A stretch of DNA of 50,931 nucleotides from a virus: IMG/VR virus record IMGVR_UViG_3300013113_000195, positions 1 through 50,931 of that record, one strand, 5' to 3'. Under the pieces are notes generated by a model that did no database searches, was not told where the DNA came from, and was given only the letters and a program-made list of their open reading frames with translations. The first letter of the stretch is position 1, and the number at the start of each line of letters is the position of its first letter. Positions 514-9,472 of this stretch are shown here, one piece after another. Both the position numbers and the translations under genes were made by a program.

Positions 514-1953
514 ATGGAAGAAATTTACACTTTATTAGCAGGTACATTTTATGGTTTGATTGTAGGTCTAGTACCTAGTGCTGGAGCAACAACAGGATTA
601 GTAGCCTTATTTGGATTTATCAGTTACTTTGGATTTGATCCTTACTTAGGCGTAATATTTTGTATGGCAGTAGTAGCCGCCAGTACAACAGGCGACACAT
701 ACTCGGGAATATTATTAGGAATACCAGGCGCCAATTCAGCCGCGGCAACTATGGTTGACGGATACCCGTTAGCAAAACAAGGTAAAGCCACTTATGCTTT
801 AACGGCCGCAATTACAACTTCAACACTTAACGGACTTATATGGGGTACACTAACCTTTGCTTTATTGCCTTGGTATGTACAACTTATTATGTACTTTGGC
901 ATTCCAGAGTTATGGGCATTCATGGTAATGGCTCTTGCCTGTGTAGGATTTGTTAGTAACAGATTTTGGTTTAGAAGTATTATAGCAATTCTTGTAGGAC
1001 TAGGAATAGGACTTATAGGTACAGATCCATTAACAAACTTTGATAGATACACAGGCGGTTGGGAATACTTAGGCGACGGTGTACAACTTATGCCTTTTGT
1101 TGCTGGACTATTTGCTTTTCCAGAAATATTAGATGGCTGGAAGAAAGGCCAACAAGTAGCTCATATGAAAGAAAATACTCAAATGAAGCAAACTTGGGAA
1201 GGTATTAAAGTAGTATGGAAAATGAAATGGGACGCTTTACGTGGCGGAGCCATTGGAGCCTTTATAGGATTCTTACCAGGCATTGGCGGTGCTATGGCAG
1301 ACTGGATGGCATATGGTTCAACAGTAGCAACTCATCCTAACGAAGAATTTGGCAAAGGTAATATTAGAGGAGTAGTAGGACCAGAAGGTGCTAACAACTC
1401 ACAAAAAGCAACTAGTATGATTCCAACAGTATTGTTTGGTATACCAGGGGCAAGTTTTGCCGCAGTTCTTATGGGACTGTTTATGTACTTAGGGTTTGAA
1501 CTAGGTGCTCAAGAAATTGCTTACGACACAAAGTTTTTTGATAGTCTAACATTTGGCTTTATGTGGGCAACAGTATTAGTTGGTATTATCTGTATAACAT
1601 TTAATAGATACATTGCTAAGATCTGTTATGTGCCTTACATATATTATTTCCCTTTAATTGTAGCATTTATAATTTGGGCCTGTGTACAATATACAGGCGG
1701 TTGGGAAGACTATGCCATATTAGCAATATGTTCGGTGCTAGGTGTTGTTTGTAAAAAGTATAAATTTAGTAGACCAGGTATGCTTATGGCATTTATACTT
1801 GCTACTAAATTTGAATCGCTGACATTAAACTTAATACACATTTATACTTTTGATAAATTATTACAAAGACCTATCTTTTTAGTATTGTGTGTACTGATTG
1901 TAGGCTTGTTTGTGTACGGTGTTTCTAGAAAAAATAAATTGGAGTATTCATAA
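514..1953 (+). CDS. tctA: Tripartite tricarboxylate transporter, large membrane subunit TctA
   Basis: A 479-residue polytopic inner-membrane protein of the TctA family, the large permease subunit that uses an ion gradient to import substrates such as citrate delivered by a periplasmic TctC/Bug binding protein. Family hallmarks are all present: LVPSAGATTG near the N-terminus, GIPGANSAAATMVDGYPLAK (roughly residues 70-90), GFLPGIGGAMADW and GPEGANNSQKATSMIPT followed by LFGIPGAS in the second half. The length matches cellular TctA (about 500), and there is no frameshift. A Shine-Dalgarno-like AAGGA lies at 500-504. The normal partner TctC is encoded 2 kb downstream, but no recognisable TctB lies beside it. 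This is highly unusual cargo for a T4-like phage. It is likely an auxiliary metabolic gene; substrate unknown. Confidence 0.92.
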   Translation: MEEIYTLLAGTFYGLIVGLVPSAGATTGLVALFGFISYFGFDPYLGVIFCMAVVAASTTGDTYSGILLGIPGANSAAATMVDGYPLAKQGKATYALTAAITTSTLNGLIWGTLTFALLPWYVQLIMYFGIPELWAFMVMALACVGFVSNRFWFRSIIAILVGLGIGLIGTDPLTNFDRYTGGWEYLGDGVQLMPFVAGLFAFPEILDGWKKGQQVAHMKENTQMKQTWEGIKVVWKMKWDALRGGAIGAFIGFLPGIGGAMADWMAYGSTVATHPNEEFGKGNIRGVVGPEGANNSQKATSMIPTVLFGIPGASFAAVLMGLFMYLGFELGAQEIAYDTKFFDSLTFGFMWATVLVGIICITFNRYIAKICYVPYIYYFPLIVAFIIWACVQYTGGWEDYAILAICSVLGVVCKKYKFSRPGMLMAFILATKFESLTLNLIHIYTFDKLLQRPIFLVLCVLIVGLFVYGVSRKNKLEYS

Positions 1954-2087
1954 TGGGAAAAAGAGCAGTACCGGGCATTATAGTAAAAAAAGGTGTCCCA
2001 AGAATTAAAAAGAATATGTCACACGCCACGTTTACAGCAAAAAGGCACCCTAATAGTAAACGTGTATTAAACGGAAGTATAAAATAG
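1953..2087 (+). CDS. Small basic protein of 44 residues
   Basis: This short reading frame starts at an ATG that overlaps the tctA stop codon (TAATG at 1951-1955), so it is probably translationally coupled to tctA. The product is strongly basic (MGKRAVPGIIVKKGVPRIKK at its start) with no membrane segment. It is too soluble and too short to be TctB. Function is not recognised. Coupling and the tidy stop at 2085-2087, 12 bases before the next gene, are the reasons for calling it. Confidence 0.5.
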   Translation: MGKRAVPGIIVKKGVPRIKKNMSHATFTAKRHPNSKRVLNGSIK

Positions 2088-2099
2088 ATTGGATAGCAA

Positions 2100-2807
2100 A
2101 TGACAAACGAAGACTGGGGTAAAAGCCGTTGGGATTTTACAAAGAAACAAAGTAAATGGCACTTTAGGCCAGAAGTAGTAAGTAAAGACTATCAAGAAGT
2201 TTGTACGTTTAATGGTGATTGGGAAGATGCTGTTAACGAGTGCTTAGAAAGAGTAGTAACTAGTACATGGGCTACACGAAATAAAGTTGATGGCAAAGAT
2301 AGAATATATAGTGCTAATCAAGAAGAATACGACTTAGAAAGAGCAGGAGCAAATCCGCAAATGGAAGTATTCAAAAGAACAAAGGCAGAAGACATAGAAG
2401 TTTTTAAAAAAATTGCTAATTACTTTGGCATGGAAGAAGCAACAATTAAGTTTCATAACCAAATAACAGGACAAATGTTAAATTGGCATATAGACAATTT
2501 TGCGGGTCGTAAAGAACGCGGAAATAGTTTTGTAGAAATAGAAGCAGATAAGAACCCTGAGCTTATGAGAAGGTTTGTTATTATGTTAGATGATTGGAAA
2601 CACGGACAAGTGTTTTCATTAGGTAATAGCAACTGGCATCAATGGAGTAAAGGACAATGTATAACATGGGAGTGGCGGGATATACCACACGCCACTTGTA
2701 ACATGGGTTGGGACAATAGGCCAATGTTACAAATTACTGGACTAACTACAGACCTCACAAGAGATCTAGTACAGTTTGGTAGTTTTAATAATGTGGTAGA
2801 CATATAG
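2100..2807 (+). CDS. 2OG/Fe(II)-dependent oxygenase-like protein
   Basis: A 235-residue protein whose second half looks like the double-stranded beta-helix core of 2-oxoglutarate, Fe(II)-dependent oxygenases. A candidate HxD iron-binding pair is WHID (H130, D132), the distal histidine would be H197 in IPHATCN, and R207 in NRPMLQITG is placed to bind 2-oxoglutarate. The aspartyl/asparaginyl hydroxylase group is the closest general resemblance. It is followed after 10 bases by a Lys/Pro-rich histone-like protein, a plausible but unproven hydroxylation substrate. Family assignment rests on motif spacing alone; the substrate is unknown. Confidence 0.6.
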   Translation: MTNEDWGKSRWDFTKKQSKWHFRPEVVSKDYQEVCTFNGDWEDAVNECLERVVTSTWATRNKVDGKDRIYSANQEEYDLERAGANPQMEVFKRTKAEDIEVFKKIANYFGMEEATIKFHNQITGQMLNWHIDNFAGRKERGNSFVEIEADKNPELMRRFVIMLDDWKHGQVFSLGNSNWHQWSKGQCITWEWRDIPHATCNMGWDNRPMLQITGLTTDLTRDLVQFGSFNNVVDI

Positions 2808-2817
2808 GAGAAATACA

Positions 2818-3141
2818 ATGAGTATTTTCAAAGGATGGCCTACTCTAACTGAAATTTTCTTTGGTAAAGAAAAAGCAAAAGAAACGGCCAAACCAAAAAA
2901 GGCACCAACAGTAGCATATAAAGTAGAGCCTAAAGCAAAAGCAACACCTAAGGCTACAGCAAAACCTAAAGCAACACCTAAGGCTACAGCAACAAAAAAA
3001 ACTGTTGCTAAACCTACAAAAAAAGCTCTTGCTAAACTAACTAAAAAACAGTTAGAAGAAATGGGTAGAGAAAAAGGTATTGAATTAGATAGACGTTTAT
3101 CAAAAGATAAACTAGTTAAGCAACTACATAAAGCATTATAG
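2818..3141 (+). CDS. Histone H1-like Lys/Ala/Pro-rich protein with C-terminal SAP/HeH-like domain
   Basis: A 107-residue protein in three parts. A short N-terminus (MSIFKGWPTL...) is followed by a very basic low-complexity region of KATPKATAKPKATPKATA type (residues about 24-70). The C-terminus, LTKKQLEEMGREKGIELD then RRLSKDKLVKQL, resembles the short helix-extended-loop-helix (HeH/SAP/Rho-N-like) nucleic-acid-binding fold. Together these suggest a DNA- or RNA-binding protein, comparable in composition with bacterial H1-like proteins. The low-complexity part is built on a 30-base tandem duplication and could vary in length between relatives. A Shine-Dalgarno-like AGGAG lies just upstream. 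Confidence 0.6.
   Translation: MSIFKGWPTLTEIFFGKEKAKETAKPKKAPTVAYKVEPKAKATPKATAKPKATPKATATKKTVAKPTKKALAKLTKKQLEEMGREKGIELDRRLSKDKLVKQLHKAL
2941..3000 (+). repeat. 30-base tandem duplication in the H1-like gene
   Basis: A 22-base exact match at 2941-2962 recurs at 2971-2992, giving a 30-base in-frame period that encodes ATPKATAKPK-type units. It explains part of the Lys/Ala/Pro repeat and marks a site prone to slippage. Confidence 0.85.
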
Positions 3142-3148
3142 GTAATTA

Positions 3149-3841
3149 ATGAACACTAAAATTTTAGACAGGCTGTGTACTATGTTTAAATCTAGTCCAC
3201 AACTATTAGATGACAATAAACTTTTACAGCAGGCAATCAATGGAACTTTTGGTGTTGACATTAAAGATATTAATTTTACCAATGTTAAAGATTTAACAGA
3301 ACTTATCCACTATCATGTACTTAAAAAATACTTTGCTACTGTTTGGCAACCTATTACAAAAAAGTACAAGTATAGTGGATTAAGTATTATAGATGAAGTT
3401 AATAACTTAAAGCCTTTACGAGTTTTAGACTTAGGCTGTGGCTATAATGAATTCAAAGGAAAGATCAACAACCTAACTGGTGTAGATCCGTACAATGAAA
3501 GAGCAGATATTAACAGTAGTATATTAGAATACAAACCAACTGAAAAATATGATATTACTATTTGTTTAGGTAGCATTAATTTTGGTACTGTAGATAAAAT
3601 ATATGCTGAATTAAAGAATGCTGTAAACTTAACAAAGACTAGCGGTTTATTATATTTTAGAGTTAATCCAGGAGAACAGCACAAGGCTCCTGAAGCACAA
3701 TGGATAGAATTTTTTAATTGGACTAATGAGTTTATTATTAATTCTGCTAGTGCTTTAAATTGTAGTATCTTAACCCTCGAACAAGAAGTAAATGACAGAG
3801 GAGTCAGGTATTATTTTGTGCTAAGAAAAAACGATAAATAA
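3149..3841 (+). CDS. Class I SAM-dependent methyltransferase-like protein
   Basis: A 230-residue protein with a Rossmann-type methyltransferase core: motif I is RVLDLGCGYNEF (about residues 90-101), followed by an acidic loop TGVDPYNERAD, a motif IV-like ITICLGSINFGT and LLYFRVNPG. An N-terminal extension of about 85 residues precedes the core. The core clearly resembles the protein encoded at 7693-8286 (shared YSG, D-GCG-N-FK, DP-N--AD, LGS-NFGT and NPG), so the two are paralogues flanking the tctC cluster. The methyl acceptor is unknown. Confidence 0.75.
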   Translation: MNTKILDRLCTMFKSSPQLLDDNKLLQQAINGTFGVDIKDINFTNVKDLTELIHYHVLKKYFATVWQPITKKYKYSGLSIIDEVNNLKPLRVLDLGCGYNEFKGKINNLTGVDPYNERADINSSILEYKPTEKYDITICLGSINFGTVDKIYAELKNAVNLTKTSGLLYFRVNPGEQHKAPEAQWIEFFNWTNEFIINSASALNCSILTLEQEVNDRGVRYYFVLRKNDK

Positions 3842-3846
3842 AAATG

Positions 3847-3864
3847 TAATACAGAGCTGTATTA
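3847..3864. promoter_or_regulatory. Perfect palindrome upstream of tctC
   Basis: TAATACAG-AG-CTGTATTA is a perfect 8-bp inverted repeat just after the methyltransferase stop. No T-run follows, so it is better read as an operator or RNA hairpin than as a terminator. It lies in the 144-base non-coding gap before tctC. A GATAAATA box (3833-3840) sits immediately upstream. Confidence 0.4.
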
Positions 3865-3939
3865 TACTCCACAATACACAAACTTAGACGAGTGTCAGGG
3901 TTCTTAGTGTAGCAAACAATCAAAAACAAAATAATTATC

Positions 3940-3960
3940 CAAGCATTTCGCTTGTATAAT
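3940..3960 (+). promoter_or_regulatory. Hairpin plus TATAAT box upstream of tctC
   Basis: CAAGC (3940-3944) and GCTTG (3950-3954) pair around ATTTC and abut a perfect TATAAT at 3955-3960, 26 bases before the tctC start. No good -35 is visible at 16-18 bases upstream, so promoter activity would need an activator or the hairpin may be a regulatory site. Shine-Dalgarno-like AAAAGGA follows. Confidence 0.4.
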
Positions 3961-3985
3961 TCTGATTATTAAAAGGAAAATAGAA

Positions 3986-5038
3986 ATGAAAAAATTATTA
4001 ATGGCACTAGTACTAACACTAGGCATTACAGGATCAGCATTTGCTGAAACGTTTACGTTTGTTGTACCGCAAAAGCCGGGCTCAGGAACAACAGTATGGA
4101 CAGAAATTGTTCTCAAAGAACTACAAAGATTCTTACCAAATGACACTCTAAAACTTAGAAACTTTCCAGGCGCTAGAGATATTCCTGCAGTTAACGCCTT
4201 TCAAAACGAACTAAGATTTGATGATACTATTGTTATGGTATCGCATGGTGGTAATGGTGTATCATTCTTACAAGAAGATGTTGACTATAACTATGCTGAT
4301 TGGGAATCAATTGGCATGATGAACTTAAACATTATTGTTGGTAAGAGATTAGATGCTGATATGGAAAACATTATCTTTGCTTCAAAATCAGGTCGTGTAC
4401 CTGACGCTATGGGAATGGCATTGTTATTATGTGGCCCAGGCAAATCAATTGATGAATATTCTGCTTGTTTCAAATCACACGTTAACTGGGTTCCAGGATT
4501 TGGTAACGGTGGTGCTAGACGTTTAGCATTTAAACGTGGTGAACTAACTGTTGACAGAGAAAACCCTGCGGCATACAAAAAACATATTGCTCCTAATGAG
4601 GAAGCAGAAGTTTGGTTCCATCATGGTATTCTACAAGCAGACGGATCACACGCTGACGATCCTAACTATCCAGGAAAGCAAATGGAAATCTTATTTGAAG
4701 AAAAATGGGGTGTTGCTCCATCAGGTCCAATGTATGATGCTTACAAACTTGTAAAATCATTCCGTGACTCTTTACAAAAAGCGTTCTGGGTAAACAAAGG
4801 CAATCCTAATGCTGAGAAATTACAGGCGGCTTTGTTAGAGATGTCTAAAGACCCTCAAGCAATCAAGGCTATCCAAAAGAAAGTTGGAAAGTATGATTGG
4901 ATTATTGGTGAAGCAGGCAACAATCAAAGAGATACGTTGATGTCGTTCATTACAGAAGATTCACTGAAAGATTTAATCAAGTTTTCAAATGATGCTTTGA
5001 ATATTCCAGCAGTATACAAAGACAAGTTAGTGAAATAA
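3986..5038 (+). CDS. tctC: Periplasmic tricarboxylate-binding receptor, TctC/Bug-like
   Basis: A 350-residue protein with a clear signal peptide (MKKLLMALVLTLGITGSAFA, cleavage predicted after AFA at about 20), so it would be exported to the host periplasm. The mature N-terminus (FTFVVPQKPGSGTTVWTEIV) matches the opening of Bug-family solute receptors, which begin with a short beta strand followed by a P-x-G-x-G loop. The length is typical (about 320-350). It would deliver an organic acid to TctA encoded upstream. The middle of the protein, including an extra Cys-containing loop (LLLCGPGKS) and an acidic insertion, is divergent, so the ligand cannot be predicted. Its own leader with palindrome and TATAAT suggests separate regulation and high dosage relative to tctA, as is usual for binding proteins. 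Confidence 0.75.
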   Translation: MKKLLMALVLTLGITGSAFAETFTFVVPQKPGSGTTVWTEIVLKELQRFLPNDTLKLRNFPGARDIPAVNAFQNELRFDDTIVMVSHGGNGVSFLQEDVDYNYADWESIGMMNLNIIVGKRLDADMENIIFASKSGRVPDAMGMALLLCGPGKSIDEYSACFKSHVNWVPGFGNGGARRLAFKRGELTVDRENPAAYKKHIAPNEEAEVWFHHGILQADGSHADDPNYPGKQMEILFEEKWGVAPSGPMYDAYKLVKSFRDSLQKAFWVNKGNPNAEKLQAALLEMSKDPQAIKAIQKKVGKYDWIIGEAGNNQRDTLMSFITEDSLKDLIKFSNDALNIPAVYKDKLVK

Positions 5039-5703
5039 TGACAAACATTTTAGTAATTACCGGGCCTCAAGGGTCCGGTAATCACCTTTATTCCAAAGCA
5101 TTATCATTACATGATGATGTATCAGGTTGGGATGACCTGTTAAGAGAGTATTGGATAAATCACGATGCGGCACCGTTTAAAGATATTTGGTCTAAGCCTG
5201 AAACTATTAAAGACTATGATTGGTCTACTAGTAATAACTGGGTTCTTAGTGTAAGTGGACCATATGTAGATATTATAGACGGGCAAAAGCAAACAGTTTA
5301 TCCTAACTACAAAGAAGTATTAAGTGAATTGAACAAAGTAGGAAACCTTCAAGTTGGCATTATTGGTAGAGATCAAAATATTATGGCACAAGGACAGTTA
5401 AGAAAAAGAGGTGTAGAAAGTTATCACAACTTTCTTAATAAGATTGAAGATATTATAGAATATTCTCACGTTTTCTTAAGTGTAGAATTGCTGTATTTGT
5501 TTAGACATCAATATTTAAAGTCGTTAGACACTTTGCTTAATATTCCTGTAGATGCTACAGATGAAAGACTTCATTATATTCTAAACAAAGATCCAAATGC
5601 CAAGTATGTACATAGTGTTGAACATAGTTGGCTTGATAAACGTAAGCGAAATGGCTTACTAAACGATGGTAGTTTACCACACGACGAAACTAAGGTGAGC
5701 TAA
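5038..5703 (+). CDS. P-loop protein, sulfotransferase/kinase-like
   Basis: A 221-residue protein opening with a nucleotide-binding loop, ILVITGPQGSGNHLYSKAL (residues 4-22), in the form typical of phage sulfotransferase-like and kinase-like P-loop proteins. A second beta strand with LQVGIIGRDQ corresponds in position to the 3'-phosphate-binding strand of sulfotransferases. The start overlaps the tctC stop (TAATG), so translation is coupled to tctC. Two further members of this broad group are encoded at 6053 and 34183. Substrate and whether it binds PAPS or ATP cannot be told from sequence. Confidence 0.6.
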   Translation: MTNILVITGPQGSGNHLYSKALSLHDDVSGWDDLLREYWINHDAAPFKDIWSKPETIKDYDWSTSNNWVLSVSGPYVDIIDGQKQTVYPNYKEVLSELNKVGNLQVGIIGRDQNIMAQGQLRKRGVESYHNFLNKIEDIIEYSHVFLSVELLYLFRHQYLKSLDTLLNIPVDATDERLHYILNKDPNAKYVHSVEHSWLDKRKRNGLLNDGSLPHDETKVS

Positions 5704-6056
5704 TGATTGAGTTAGCAATCGCTAACTTTACCTATGTCATATATCGACTAGTGGTTTCAGGACCACTAGTTAAATTTTTAAACAAATATTTAACTTACTA
5801 TTGGGCAGTATTCTTTATGGCCCAATTAAGTTTTATATACGATAACTTTGTATTCTACAATTATTTTCAAGCAGATTCGTTTCTATGGCTTGACATCATA
5901 TGGGCAGATGTGTTATACTCAATAAGAGTATTAATGGCTTGGTGGGTTATCAAGCAGTTATGGAATTGGATAGGCAACTATTGGGTAGCAGTATTTTTAG
6001 GTGCTCAATTAACTTTTATAGTTGACTACTTTATATTAGGAAGTGTATATACATGA
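5703..6056 (+). CDS. Four-helix membrane protein with internal repeat (possible TctB substitute)
   Basis: A 117-residue hydrophobic protein with about four membrane segments (residues about 8-26, 31-54, 61-83, 93-115). Segments 2 and 4 are internal repeats: YYWAVFFMAQLSFIYDNFVF against YWVAVFLGAQLTFIVDYFIL. TctB, the small subunit missing from this transporter locus, is a four-helix protein of about 150 residues, so the topology and the location in the tctC transcription unit make it a candidate functional substitute. No sequence match to TctB was recognised. It could instead be a holin-like or unrelated membrane protein. It overlaps both neighbours by a few bases. Confidence 0.6.
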   Translation: MIELAIANFTYVIYRLVVSGPLVKFLNKYLTYYWAVFFMAQLSFIYDNFVFYNYFQADSFLWLDIIWADVLYSIRVLMAWWVIKQLWNWIGNYWVAVFLGAQLTFIVDYFILGSVYT

Positions 6057-6661
6057 AGAATTGGATATTTTTTACAGGAGCACCAGGGAGTCGCTGGAGC
6101 GGAGTAAGTCAACATATTAGAGACCACGGCACTAACGTAGACAACACAGATTTAGTACCTGAGAAAACATACACACATCACAAGTATAGTGGACACATAG
6201 GAAACTACTACGGTCCTGGAATGCTTAACGGACAATGGTTAGATAAGGAGTTTGGGTCGTTTAACCTATGGCAAAAAGAAATAGCACAAAGTTACTTAGG
6301 TAAAGATGACGATATTAAGTTAATACTAAGTCATAACTTTGCTTATTATCTAAACAATATAAAAGAAACGTTTCCTGATAGCAAAATTGTAATGTGTTAT
6401 AGGCCAGACGACGAATGTTACAACTGGTGGCATGAAGCAGGAGGTTGGGATATTAGTTATCCTAGTTATGAATGGTACAGAGATAATACAACTATGAATC
6501 ATCAAATAACAGAACAAAATAAAGCAATATTAGATTTTTGTTATAAACATAATCTTACATTACGAAAGCCAGGTCGTGAATGGCTTAGAAACGAGTTTAA
6601 CATTGATGCTGATTTTATATTTCAAAAAGATGTTTGGATAGCAGTCTATGATTCCAATTAA
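6053..6661 (+). CDS. Sulfotransferase-like P-loop protein
   Basis: A 202-residue protein starting with WIFFTGAPGSRWSGVSQHI, a P-loop variant. Around residue 110 it has DSKIVMCYRPDDECYNWW, which resembles the RxP/RxD strand of sulfotransferases where the 3'-phosphate of PAPS binds. It ends with a helix and KPGREWLRNEF, close to where sulfotransferases carry a second PAPS loop. The ATG overlaps the preceding membrane protein stop (ATGA). The acceptor is unknown; it may modify glycans or small molecules. Confidence 0.6.
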   Translation: MKNWIFFTGAPGSRWSGVSQHIRDHGTNVDNTDLVPEKTYTHHKYSGHIGNYYGPGMLNGQWLDKEFGSFNLWQKEIAQSYLGKDDDIKLILSHNFAYYLNNIKETFPDSKIVMCYRPDDECYNWWHEAGGWDISYPSYEWYRDNTTMNHQITEQNKAILDFCYKHNLTLRKPGREWLRNEFNIDADFIFQKDVWIAVYDSN

Positions 6662-7700
6662 AGGATATTCTACATTTGATCCTTTAAAGCATTGCTGGGT
6701 CGGATCAGGATTTAAAGCAGAATGGTTTGAAGATTTATTTCCTAAGAATAATAAAATTTTAGATCCCCTTAAACGTATTGCTGATGAAACCGAAGAAGAT
6801 TTTTTAAAATTAGTTGACATACTAGAATCTTGTGGTGTAAAAACATATAGAAGTTTTTTAAACATTGAAGGTGACGGCAAATATAAATCACTAAATGATG
6901 TATGGCGCCCACCAATGACCCCAAGAGATCATTTTTGTGTTGTTGGCGAAAAGTTATATGTAGGTGAAAGAAACGAGTTCTTAAACAAGGGTGGTATGAT
7001 TGACATTGTTAATCAGGTTGATAAAAAAGACATATACATAACCGAGCAAACACTTGATACACCGTGGGAAGGCTATACACCATTTATAAGTTCAGCACAA
7101 ATTTGTAGAGTTGGTAAAGATTTATTTTGGGACTCGCATGAAAGGTGGGCCGAAAATGCTCCACCTGATTTAGAAAAAGAGTTAATTGAAAACTGGAACA
7201 AAGAAGGATTTAGAGTACACAGATCACATAGGGGATATCATTCCGATGGTTGTTTTTGTGTAGTTAAGCCCGGATGTATTGTGTCGTTAAAAGATATACA
7301 AGACTACAAAACACAATTTCCTGGATGGGACGTATTATATTTGCCAGACCAATCGTGGTCTAAAGTTGATCCGTTCTTACAGATGAAATGGAAAGTTGGA
7401 GGACGCTGGTGGTTAAAAGGAGAAGAGCATAACGATCAATTAATAGAATTTGTCAACACGTGGTTAAAGGATTGGGTAGGCTATGTAGAAGAAACAGTTT
7501 TTGATGTTAATATGTTATCTATTGATCAAAATACAATTATATGTAACAACTATAACAAAGAAGTGTTTGACCACTTTAAAAAGCATAAAGTAGAGCCTAT
7601 AATATTTAACTTTAGGCATAGGTATTTTTGGGACGGAGGAATACATTGTATAACACAAGACTTATATAGAGAAGGAAAATTGGAGGATTACATTGGTTAA
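6648..7700 (+). CDS. Amidinotransferase / guanidino-group-modifying enzyme-fold protein
   Basis: A 350-residue protein with features of the amidinotransferase (GATM, DDAH, arginine deiminase) superfamily. These are MTPRDHFCVVGEKLYVGER (about 90-108), D162 in LFWDSHE, a His-containing loop YHSDGCF (H198), and a C-terminal GGIHCITQDLYRE with the predicted nucleophile C334. The order of acidic residue, His and C-terminal Cys matches the catalytic triad of that superfamily. Possible reactions are transfer or hydrolysis of an amidino group from arginine, linking it to arginine or nitrogen metabolism. Start at 6648 overlaps the preceding gene by 14 bases. Confidence 0.75.
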   Translation: MIPIKGYSTFDPLKHCWVGSGFKAEWFEDLFPKNNKILDPLKRIADETEEDFLKLVDILESCGVKTYRSFLNIEGDGKYKSLNDVWRPPMTPRDHFCVVGEKLYVGERNEFLNKGGMIDIVNQVDKKDIYITEQTLDTPWEGYTPFISSAQICRVGKDLFWDSHERWAENAPPDLEKELIENWNKEGFRVHRSHRGYHSDGCFCVVKPGCIVSLKDIQDYKTQFPGWDVLYLPDQSWSKVDPFLQMKWKVGGRWWLKGEEHNDQLIEFVNTWLKDWVGYVEETVFDVNMLSIDQNTIICNNYNKEVFDHFKKHKVEPIIFNFRHRYFWDGGIHCITQDLYREGKLEDYIG

Positions 7701-8286
7701 TAAAACAGTAGTTCATTATTTTAAACATAAATGGAAACGAGACAAGGAGGGAAACCAAGTGGACAAAAATACAGTAAACAAATATTTTGGTAGTAACTGG
7801 AAACCAGATTATAAGCACTATGAATACAGTGGCTGGGCATTATTAGACAAAGTAGGACCTAACGATACAGTAATTGATATTGGTTGTGGTTTTAATTCAT
7901 TTAAAGAAAAGTTAGGTGACCGACTTTATGGCTTTGACCCTGCTAATGATAAAGCAGACGAAGTAGTAGGAATTGAAGAATTTGAAGCAAATGGGAAACA
8001 ATGGGATATAGCATTTGTTTTAGGTAGTTTGAATTTTGGCACAGCAGAAGATGTTGAACCACAAGTTCAAAAAGCAGTTGATCTAGTAAAACCGGGCGGT
8101 ATATTATATTGGCGACAAAATCCAGGAATAGGAGATCATCCTTGGAAAGGTGTTGAAGAAATACAGTTTTTTCCTTGGACATTTGAACTTAATTATGAAT
8201 GGGCTAAAAAATATGGTTGTGAAGTACTTGAGTGTAAATGGGACGCCCAAAGTGATAGAATATACTCAGAATGGAAAAAACTTTAA
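7693..8286 (+). CDS. Class I SAM-dependent methyltransferase-like protein, paralogue of the 3149 protein
   Basis: A 197-residue protein starting at TTG 7693, chosen because GGAGG lies at 7682-7686 with a 6-base spacer and the start overlaps the previous stop by 8 bases. Motif I is TVIDIGCGFNSF, then YGFDPANDKAD, IAFVLGSLNFGT and GGILYWRQNPG. The core aligns by eye with the protein at 3149, but it lacks that protein's long N-terminal extension and starts with a basic segment. The acceptor is unknown. It is the last gene before the gp32 leader. Confidence 0.75.
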   Translation: MVNKTVVHYFKHKWKRDKEGNQVDKNTVNKYFGSNWKPDYKHYEYSGWALLDKVGPNDTVIDIGCGFNSFKEKLGDRLYGFDPANDKADEVVGIEEFEANGKQWDIAFVLGSLNFGTAEDVEPQVQKAVDLVKPGGILYWRQNPGIGDHPWKGVEEIQFFPWTFELNYEWAKKYGCEVLECKWDAQSDRIYSEWKKL

Positions 8287-8293
8287 AAAAAGG

Positions 8294-8322
8294 TTGACTT
8301 TCACACTGGTTCTATGTAATAA
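8294..8322 (+). promoter_or_regulatory. Candidate sigma70-type promoter for gp32
   Basis: TTGACT (8294-8299) is followed 17 bases later by TAATAA (8317-8322). The -35 is good, the -10 is weak. It follows directly after the methyltransferase stop and precedes the structured gp32 leader. A TATAAATG late-type box also occurs at 8392-8399. Confidence 0.4.
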
Positions 8323-8390
8323 TGTACTTGTTAAATAAAAATTTAACAACGGAGCCAGTTTTTATTATCATTTTTAGCAAGGAGTGATAA
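8305..8390 (+). promoter_or_regulatory. Structured leader upstream of gp32
   Basis: Three nested or tandem pairings are visible. ACTGGTTC (8305-8312) pairs with GAGCCAGT (8352-8359) and is followed by a T-run. Inside it, TTGTTAAAT (8328-8336) and ATTTAACAA (8341-8349) form a perfect 9-bp hairpin. Then TTATCA (8365-8370) pairs with TGATAA (8385-8390), with AAGGAG in the loop. T4 gene 32 is autoregulated by gp32 binding to a structured leader, so a similar control, or an attenuator, is plausible here. Confidence 0.5.
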
Positions 8391-8464
8391 ATATAAATGT
8401 TAAGACATAATTGGAATTATGTTTTATCAAGGCAATTAACAAAGGCACATAGGAGGCATATATT

Positions 8465-9472
8465 ATGGCATCACTTGCGGAAATACGAGCTAGGCTACAA
8501 GCTCAAGAAACACGCCAATCAGGCAGTAGCACAGGAGGAGATAATGCTATCTTCCCTCACTGGAACATCCAAGAAAACGAAAGTACTACATTAAGGTTTC
8601 TCCCTGATGGAGATTCTAGTAATACATTTTTCTGGGCAGAACGTCAAATGATTCGTTTACCTTTCCAAGGTATTAAAGGCGACGTTAATAGCAAACCTTG
8701 TACGGTACAAGTTCCGTGTATGGAAATGTGGGAACCAGTTGGTTCATGTCCAATCTTGACTGAGGTTCGTCCTTGGTTTAAAGACAGCTCACTAGAGGAC
8801 ATGGGTCGTAAGTACTGGAAGAAACGTTCGTACGTTTTCCAAGGATTTGTTAGAGAAAATCCTCTAACTGAAGATTCAACTCCAGAAAATCCAATCAGAC
8901 GTTTTATTATGGGGCCACAACTCTTTAATATTATTAAAGCAAGTTTAATGGATCCAGAAATGGACGAATTACCAACAGATTCAACTGCTGGACTAGATTT
9001 TCGTGTAACAAAAACCACAAAAGGTGGCTATGCTGATTATTCAACATCTAAATGGGCTCGTAAAGAAACTCCATTAAGTGCTGAAGAACAAACAGCAATT
9101 GACACACATGGGTTGTTTACATTGAATGACTTCTTACCTAAGAAACCGTCAGAAACTGAACTTAACATCATCAAACAAATGTTTGAGGAATCAGTTGATG
9201 GCAAGCCTTACGATACCGAGAAATTTGGTGCTTATTATCGTCCGGCTGGTGTTAGTGCTCCTCAAGGCAGTACACAAACAACTACTTCTACTACGGCAAC
9301 ACCGTCTCCCGCTCCGGCTGTTTCAACACAGCCAGTTGCTGAAACTACAACAGAAGAAGTTAGTACTCCAGCACCGGCTCCAGTAGCAAAGGCTGAGGCT
9401 CCTGTTGAAACAACTTCTGCTAAAAAGGCAGATGATATTCTAGCAATGATTAGAGATCGTCAACAGAAGTAA
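8465..9472 (+). CDS. 32: Single-stranded DNA-binding protein, gp32-like
   Basis: A 335-residue T4-type SSB that coats ssDNA in replication and recombination. The N-terminus (MASLAEIRARLQ) is a basic helix like the cooperativity domain. The core carries TTLRFLPDGD, FWAERQMIRLPFQGIKGD, the Cys-containing stretch VQVPCMEMW...SCP (C79, C85, C95) and VRPWFKD...GRKYWKKRSYVFQGFV, all typical of gp32 of marine T4-like phages. A long Thr/Pro/Ala linker (about 255-315) leads to a short C-terminal tail that ends DDILAMIRDRQQK. It is less acidic than in T4. Shine-Dalgarno AGGAGG is just upstream. It has its own structured leader and a strong terminator, so is a separate transcription unit. Confidence 0.93.
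   Translation: MASLAEIRARLQAQETRQSGSSTGGDNAIFPHWNIQENESTTLRFLPDGDSSNTFFWAERQMIRLPFQGIKGDVNSKPCTVQVPCMEMWEPVGSCPILTEVRPWFKDSSLEDMGRKYWKKRSYVFQGFVRENPLTEDSTPENPIRRFIMGPQLFNIIKASLMDPEMDELPTDSTAGLDFRVTKTTKGGYADYSTSKWARKETPLSAEEQTAIDTHGLFTLNDFLPKKPSETELNIIKQMFEESVDGKPYDTEKFGAYYRPAGVSAPQGSTQTTTSTTATPSPAPAVSTQPVAETTTEEVSTPAPAPVAKAEAPVETTSAKKADDILAMIRDRQQK

Follow-up and report, generated by a model that had tools for sequence, protein, structure and literature searches.

Does a phage genome that carries genes of the tripartite tricarboxylate transporter (TTT) family encode a working importer and, if so, of what make-up and for which substrate? The question is raised by IMG/VR record IMGVR_UViG_3300013113_000195, a virus fragment of 50,931 bases that was analysed over its full length (the window). 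An earlier note, made from the letters alone, had recognised in it the large membrane subunit TctA and a TctC-like receptor with an export signal, and had read them as a near-complete tripartite transporter for citrate or a related acid. Our results indicate that the two genes are a genuine virus-encoded variant of the TTT transporter, one that is widespread and for the most part undescribed. We give a probability of about 0.7 to the reading that the window carries a phage-borne two-component carboxylate uptake system of the TTT type, for which we infer both transport and substrate. The two genes are:

514..1953, + strand: TctA, large membrane subunit of the tripartite tricarboxylate transporter; 479 amino acids (aa), family PF01970, about 12 predicted membrane spans
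3986..5038, + strand: TctC/Bug-like periplasmic solute-binding protein; 350 aa, signal peptide with cleavage after AFA

The two proteins and the phage that encodes them

Both open reading frames (ORFs) were intact at these positions, with 2,032 bp between the TctA stop and the TctC start, in agreement with the spacing of about 2 kb given earlier. A Pfam scan assigned ORF 514-1953 to PF01970 with E=1.1e-97 and 327.8 bits (cut-off 28.9 bits), the match covering model positions 3-421 of 423. The hallmark of the family is a duplicated motif, G-Hy3-G-Hy3-G-Hy2-P-G-Hy-G, located in transmembrane segments TM1 and TM7 (Winnen et al., as cited in PMC5812351). In the window TctA the two copies occupy residues 10-24 (GTFYGLIVGLVPSAG) and 244-258 (GGAIGAFIGFLPGIG); the first deviates from the published P-G-Hy-G, reading P-S-A-G in this protein and P-S/A/G-A-G across the clade. 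A simple Kyte-Doolittle scan, which is crude, gave 12 hydrophobic spans, and all 23 phage TctAs compared were full length with both motif copies. No solved relative was found when the PDB was searched with TctA. The complete ORF, the PF01970 match and the two motif copies bear out the earlier description of a full-length, intact subunit, and no loss of conserved residues that would speak against a functional transporter was seen.

The binding protein was matched by no Pfam family, PF03401 included, and by no PHROG, and NCBIfam gave nothing meaningful; 25 viral relatives scanned singly gave no family match either. A profile of the family made weak contact in the PDB with BugD (E=0.0026) and with one TctC (E=0.1). 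An AlphaFold2 model computed from the alignment of the 25 relatives (A1, also the query for searches of cellular genomes) was confident (pLDDT 88.7, pTM 0.87), and in a Foldseek comparison with the PDB ranks 1-16 were all TctC/Bug proteins (E 6e-10 to 2e-7), among them Polaromonas TctC, MatC, TphC, terephthalate-binding protein, Bug27, BugD and Rpa4515. Alignment of the phage profile by hhalign with cellular TTT binding proteins, collected by searching genomes with A1, gave 99.8% over 299 columns at 23% identity, and RRLAFKRGEL of the phage protein aligned with GRLAFERGE of the cellular ones (common stretch RLAFxRGE). The signal peptide is backed by alanines at -3 and -1 that are invariant in 25/25 relatives. 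Also invariant are the basic residues R178, R179, R184, R191 and K199. By the model and the profiles, ORF 3986-5038 is an exported solute-binding protein of the TctC/Bug fold. The receptor proposed in the earlier note was thereby upheld, and neither protein fell among unrelated families.

The window encodes a T4-type replication core (gp32, UvsX, a Dda-type helicase and the large subunit of ribonucleotide reductase) together with an exonuclease. A 204-kb virus contig has this region too, at 97-100% identity from the upstream gene to gp32 and UvsX; because other virus contigs, this large one among them, carry the block, an assembly chimera is unlikely. UvsX had its nearest relatives in Sinorhizobium phage Phosso and Agrobacterium phage Atu_ph07 (469-490 kb), and those of gp32 were in the PA5oct group, so that by these two comparisons the nearest isolates are phages of 280-490 kb rather than a classical T4-like phage of about 170 kb. 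Since the 204-kb contig shares the region and both proteins are nearest to those of jumbo phages, the window phage is a jumbo phage with a T4-like core. Of the label "T4-like phage" that had been attached to it, the phage genome and the T4-type core stand; size and nearest isolates point elsewhere.

A conserved pair in a mainly viral clade

The pair had been regarded as unusual. A single-protein scan of IMG/VR returned 59 TctA loci and 131 TctC loci, and an alignment scan found at least 357 virus contigs (stretches) with a close TctA relative, of which the best 80, at least 68% identical in the best segment, were kept. The window pair is thus one member of a clade, and hundreds of virus contigs carry a pair of the same kind. 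Across 197 TctA loci, some of which overlap in contig, TctC lay on the same strand as TctA in 187, and the remaining 10 run off the available sequence. The usual order is TctA followed by TctC, with TctC upstream in a few loci, and the two ORFs overlap by 8 bases in 81 loci and by 4 bases in 32; locus L369, where the genes lie on opposite strands, is an exception to the same-strand pairing. The ratio of non-synonymous to synonymous substitution rates (dN/dS) between relatives was 0.06-0.16 for TctA and 0.04-0.18 for TctC, with some dS values near saturation and one TctC pair not computable. Both genes are under strong purifying selection, as had been expected from the intact large subunit. A search of INPHARED gave TctA matches of just 26-32%, at least one of them in bacterial-looking DNA filed as phage, and no TctC match, so these phage records hold no close relative.

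A maximum-likelihood tree of 62 TctAs placed 32 phage sequences and that of Marine bacterium B5-7 in one group (support 97/96), with a long branch between this group and all other cellular sequences, and the TctC tree gave the same split with support 100/100. B5-7 aside, the nearest cellular TctAs, in searches that covered samples of the phylum and classes, were 31-35% identical and about 655 aa long. Phage TctA and TctC therefore form their own, mainly viral clade. Nesting of the phage copies among host alleles, which the earlier note had proposed to look for and by which a host-derived auxiliary metabolic gene is recognised, was seen in neither tree.

When 84,980 GTDB genomes were scanned by motif for members of the TctC family, only two relatives appeared, L141 (B5-7) and L142, a phage-like contig in a Pelagibacter metagenome-assembled genome (MAG). 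L142 carries the TctA-TctC cassette at a GC content of 43%, compared with 33% for another contig of the same MAG, and is likely contamination; it was the sole hint of Pelagibacter as host and was rejected as evidence. B5-7, also a MAG, resembles the phages in its unfused 479-aa TctA (57% identical to that of the window), its TctC (55%) and the adjacency of the two genes, and differs in that the pair lies on an apparently bacterial contig. Beside this pair (L141 8536-12376) are a P-loop gene (36%) and a methyltransferase gene (37-42%) of the phage type. Because the latter two are a common phage duo in their own right, as described below, a transfer from phage to B5-7 is plausible from gene content; neither tree fixes the position of B5-7 relative to the phages.

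A TctA profile search of 17 large relatives of the window phage revealed a second, very divergent TctA (type II) in 4 of them. PF01970 matched the three type-II proteins scanned with E 2e-61 to 2e-52. The pairs are located as follows:

L184, 5172-7687: type-II TctA pair
L185, 5799-7982: type-II TctA pair
L186, 5280-7457: type-II TctA pair
L187, 5591-7801: type-II TctA pair
L280-L328: type-II TctA loci

A scan of IMG/VR gave 49 type-II loci, 47 of which have, next to TctA, a protein of about 250-335 aa that a crude filter for signal peptides marks as exported. When a profile of five of these binding proteins was compared with the PDB, it matched TphC, terephthalate-binding protein and Bug27 (best E=4.6e-5). 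In G511, G514, G520 and G524 the type-II pair shares a virus contig with a window-type pair. No separate TctB was seen between the type-II genes, in a search that did not span all these contigs. Directly downstream of the pair in L187 (L280), at 7804-9358, are PxpB (PF02682) and PxpC (PF02626); since these 5-oxoprolinase-subunit-like genes follow the pair, their position suggests 5-oxoproline as its substrate. Beside some type-II pairs (L318, L321, L325 and L326) genes resembling DctP of TRAP transporters were noticed by eye. We lean, by a narrow balance, towards the view that large marine phages evolved two branches of two-component importers made of TctA and a binding protein and lacking TctB, on at least about 400 contigs, with some phages carrying both and with different predicted substrates (tricarboxylates, and 5-oxoproline for at least one type-II pair).

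TctB, substrate and competing explanations

No match to the TctB family PF07331 at E<=1 was found in 17 virus records, including those of 204 kb and 328 kb, and both bacterial genomes searched alongside (G001 and G002) were positive. No conserved small multi-span protein was found beside phage TctA-TctC pairs. The 117-aa membrane gene at 5703-6056 of the window was considered as TctB and rejected, given an hhalign value of 0.1% against the C-terminal region of cellular TctAB fusions and its absence beside most phage pairs. That C-terminal region is probably TctB-like, judging from its position, length and membrane character, and PF07331 also misses it in L173 and L182, so that a divergent viral TctB could escape detection. 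One B5-7 protein has a PF07331 match in the same frame as TctA. TctB is reported to be absent in archaea, which have TctA (PMC5812351), and the same source cites Winnen et al. for the view that TctA is the core and TctB an accessory. Because no viral TctB was detected and archaea are likewise reported to lack one, we file the phage proteins as relatives of TctA and TctC, and the system as a two-component variant rather than a classical, or near-complete, tripartite transporter. That phages also have a second, very divergent pairing of TctA with a binding protein is an argument for the two parts forming a functional unit.

The closest cellular relatives of both phage proteins are systems of TctC and a fused TctAB-like protein (L173-L182), which share the RLAFxRGE stretch. 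They differ in the order of the genes (TctC followed by TctAB), in a TctA that reaches about 655 aa through an added membrane region at the C-terminus and is only 31-35% identical to that of the phages, and in their PrpF neighbours. A PrpF-family gene (PF04303) lies beside these systems in most loci examined, as tested with Pfam in two loci and judged by sequence resemblance in the rest, and two loci also contain a protein of the isocitrate/isopropylmalate-dehydrogenase family (PF00180) and TcuA/TcuB-like FAD and Fe-S proteins. PrpF proteins are isomerases of aconitate-type acids, and tricarballylate is the compound that TcuA/TcuB oxidise. Our best guess by analogy is that the ancestral substrate was an unsaturated or C6 tricarboxylate. 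Since the nearest cellular relatives of both proteins adjoin PrpF, PF00180 and TcuA/TcuB-like genes, the likeliest substrate class, again by analogy, would be a tricarboxylate resembling aconitate, tricarballylate or citrate; the phage protein may have a substrate different from the ancestral one. The uptake of citrate or a related acid that had been proposed survives as carboxylate uptake, a best guess, with citrate itself no more than a candidate.

During infection, the binding protein would be exported to the host periplasm, where it would capture a small carboxylate and pass it to TctA, which would bring it into the cell together with protons or sodium, driven by the ion gradient. During phage production the infected cell would thus go on receiving carbon for the tricarboxylic acid (TCA) cycle and for making amino acids and nucleotides.

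Several observations weigh against this proposal. TctB, a part of classical systems, was not found in the viruses, and DctQ, its counterpart in TRAP systems, is essential there (PMC5812351). The phage binding protein is just 23% identical to the cellular proteins on which the substrate prediction is based. In the window TctA and TctC are separated by 2 kb, a gap of three genes that is common to near relatives of the window phage only. Finally, the block of the window TctC and the next, P-loop-like gene (3986-5703) is 85-90% alike to L013, L065 and L072, whose TctA is merely 76-77% alike to that of the window, whereas the window TctA and methyltransferase are 84-92% alike to L004 and L005, whose TctC is merely 67% alike; these values suggest a swap of the binding-protein block between phages, relative to TctA.

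The most serious competitor, possible though clearly less probable than carboxylate uptake for carbon supply, is a genuine transporter with a non-tricarboxylate substrate, for example an amino acid, an aromatic acid or citrate complexed with a metal, and a role other than carbon supply. TctC/Bug proteins also bind glutamate, quinolinate, terephthalate and adipate (PMC5812351, PMC11452294), and the PxpB/PxpC-like genes after one type-II pair suggest 5-oxoproline there, but the tricarboxylate-related genes beside the nearest cellular relatives argue for the class favoured here. A transporter of the ordinary tripartite kind whose parts come from both virus and host, with a host TctB joining the substrate-choosing and rate-limiting parts supplied by the phage, is unlikely. 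The lack of a detected viral TctB and the TctB of the bacterial genomes G001 and G002 would fit it; yet the nearest cellular TctAs carry the fused, probably TctB-like region, so that a separate TctB from another TTT subfamily would be needed, and the core role ascribed to TctA and the archaeal TctAs without TctB, as presented in PMC5812351, also tell against it.

Non-uptake roles, with the binding protein as a periplasmic decoy or signal, or TctA disturbing the ion gradient or keeping out superinfecting phages, are improbable given the conserved binding-protein fold and TctA motifs and a pair that is almost always found together, in two divergent versions. Least credible of all is that one phage acquired the genes as neutral host DNA, or that the assembly is chimeric: transient host genes do occur in large phages, but hundreds of virus contigs, the conserved pairing, dN/dS near 0.1 and the same locus in independent assemblies hardly leave room for it. 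All in all, we favour a two-component carboxylate importer.

Neighbouring genes and known systems

The genes between and beyond the pair are:

2100..2807, + strand: first of the three genes that separate the pair; without a Pfam or PHROG family, and resembling 2OG-Fe(II) oxygenases only by eye
2818..3141, + strand: second of these three genes; small protein rich in Lys and Ala
3149..3841, + strand: third of these three genes; protein resembling S-adenosylmethionine (SAM) methyltransferases, PF13489 at E=4e-4, below the cut-off
5038..5703, + strand: P-loop-like protein directly downstream of TctC
5703..6056, + strand: 117-aa membrane protein, rejected as a TctB substitute
6053..6661, + strand: P-loop protein with a kinase- or sulfotransferase-like fold; AlphaFold2 pLDDT 92.4, weak PDB matches

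Within a few kb of TctA, relatives of the 2100-2807 gene were present in 30/53 loci, those of the methyltransferase in 41/53 and the P-loop gene of the 6053-6661 type in 35/53; the block of TctC and the 5038-5703 gene recurs in L013, L065 and L072. Comparison of the 6053-6661 protein with the PDB gave weak matches, the best being adenylate-kinase-like (E=3e-3) and the third an Stf0 sulfotransferase. A scan for this P-loop gene returned at least 599 stretches (loci L329-L403); at 46 well-covered loci the methyltransferase was present in 44 and TctA absent in 28. Because of these two counts, the P-loop and methyltransferase genes form a duo of their own, with TctA-TctC as an optional neighbour, and we rejected them as parts of the transport module. 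The duo (6053-6661 and 3149-3841 in the window) is very common in phages, often but not always adjoining TctA-TctC. The following gene, at 6648-7700, looks amidinotransferase-like by eye (GGxHCxTQDLYREG), and its sole match was a PHROG without known function.

TTT genes have been sighted in marine virus contigs before. One source, PMC4164917, whose finding recurs in the review PMC6359870, gives a tctA domain match for a contig of putatively viral origin from a SUP05 single cell; another, PMC8115048, gives "tricarboxylate transport" genes for a marine myovirus scaffold with norB/nirK. The relevant passages of PMC4164917 and PMC8115048 do not describe the TctA-TctC pair, its conservation or the viral clade, and we found no description of a conserved phage pair in the open-access literature, which leaves subscription papers and preprints outside its scope. 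BFVD entries annotated "PBP2_Bug_TTT domain" and "Bordetella uptake protein", from uncultured Caudovirales phages, are viral and share the fold of the window TctC, but are merely 12-15% identical to it. If our reading is true, complete organic-acid importers, on hundreds of contigs and with almost no literature, join the known auxiliary genes of phages. Infected marine bacteria would gain a virus-encoded, high-affinity uptake route, and phages would alter which dissolved organic acids are consumed.

The founder of the TTT family, the citrate transporter TctCBA of Salmonella (TC 2.A.80; PMC5812351), shares with the phage system the duplicated G-x3-G-x3-G-x2-P-x-x-G motif, an exported protein of the TctC/Bug fold and adjacent genes. 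The phage system differs in being phage-borne and without TctB, in its usual order of TctA followed by TctC as opposed to C-B-A, and in a binding protein that PF03401 misses. Set beside this classical transporter, the phage pair offers a natural test of whether TTT transport requires TctB.

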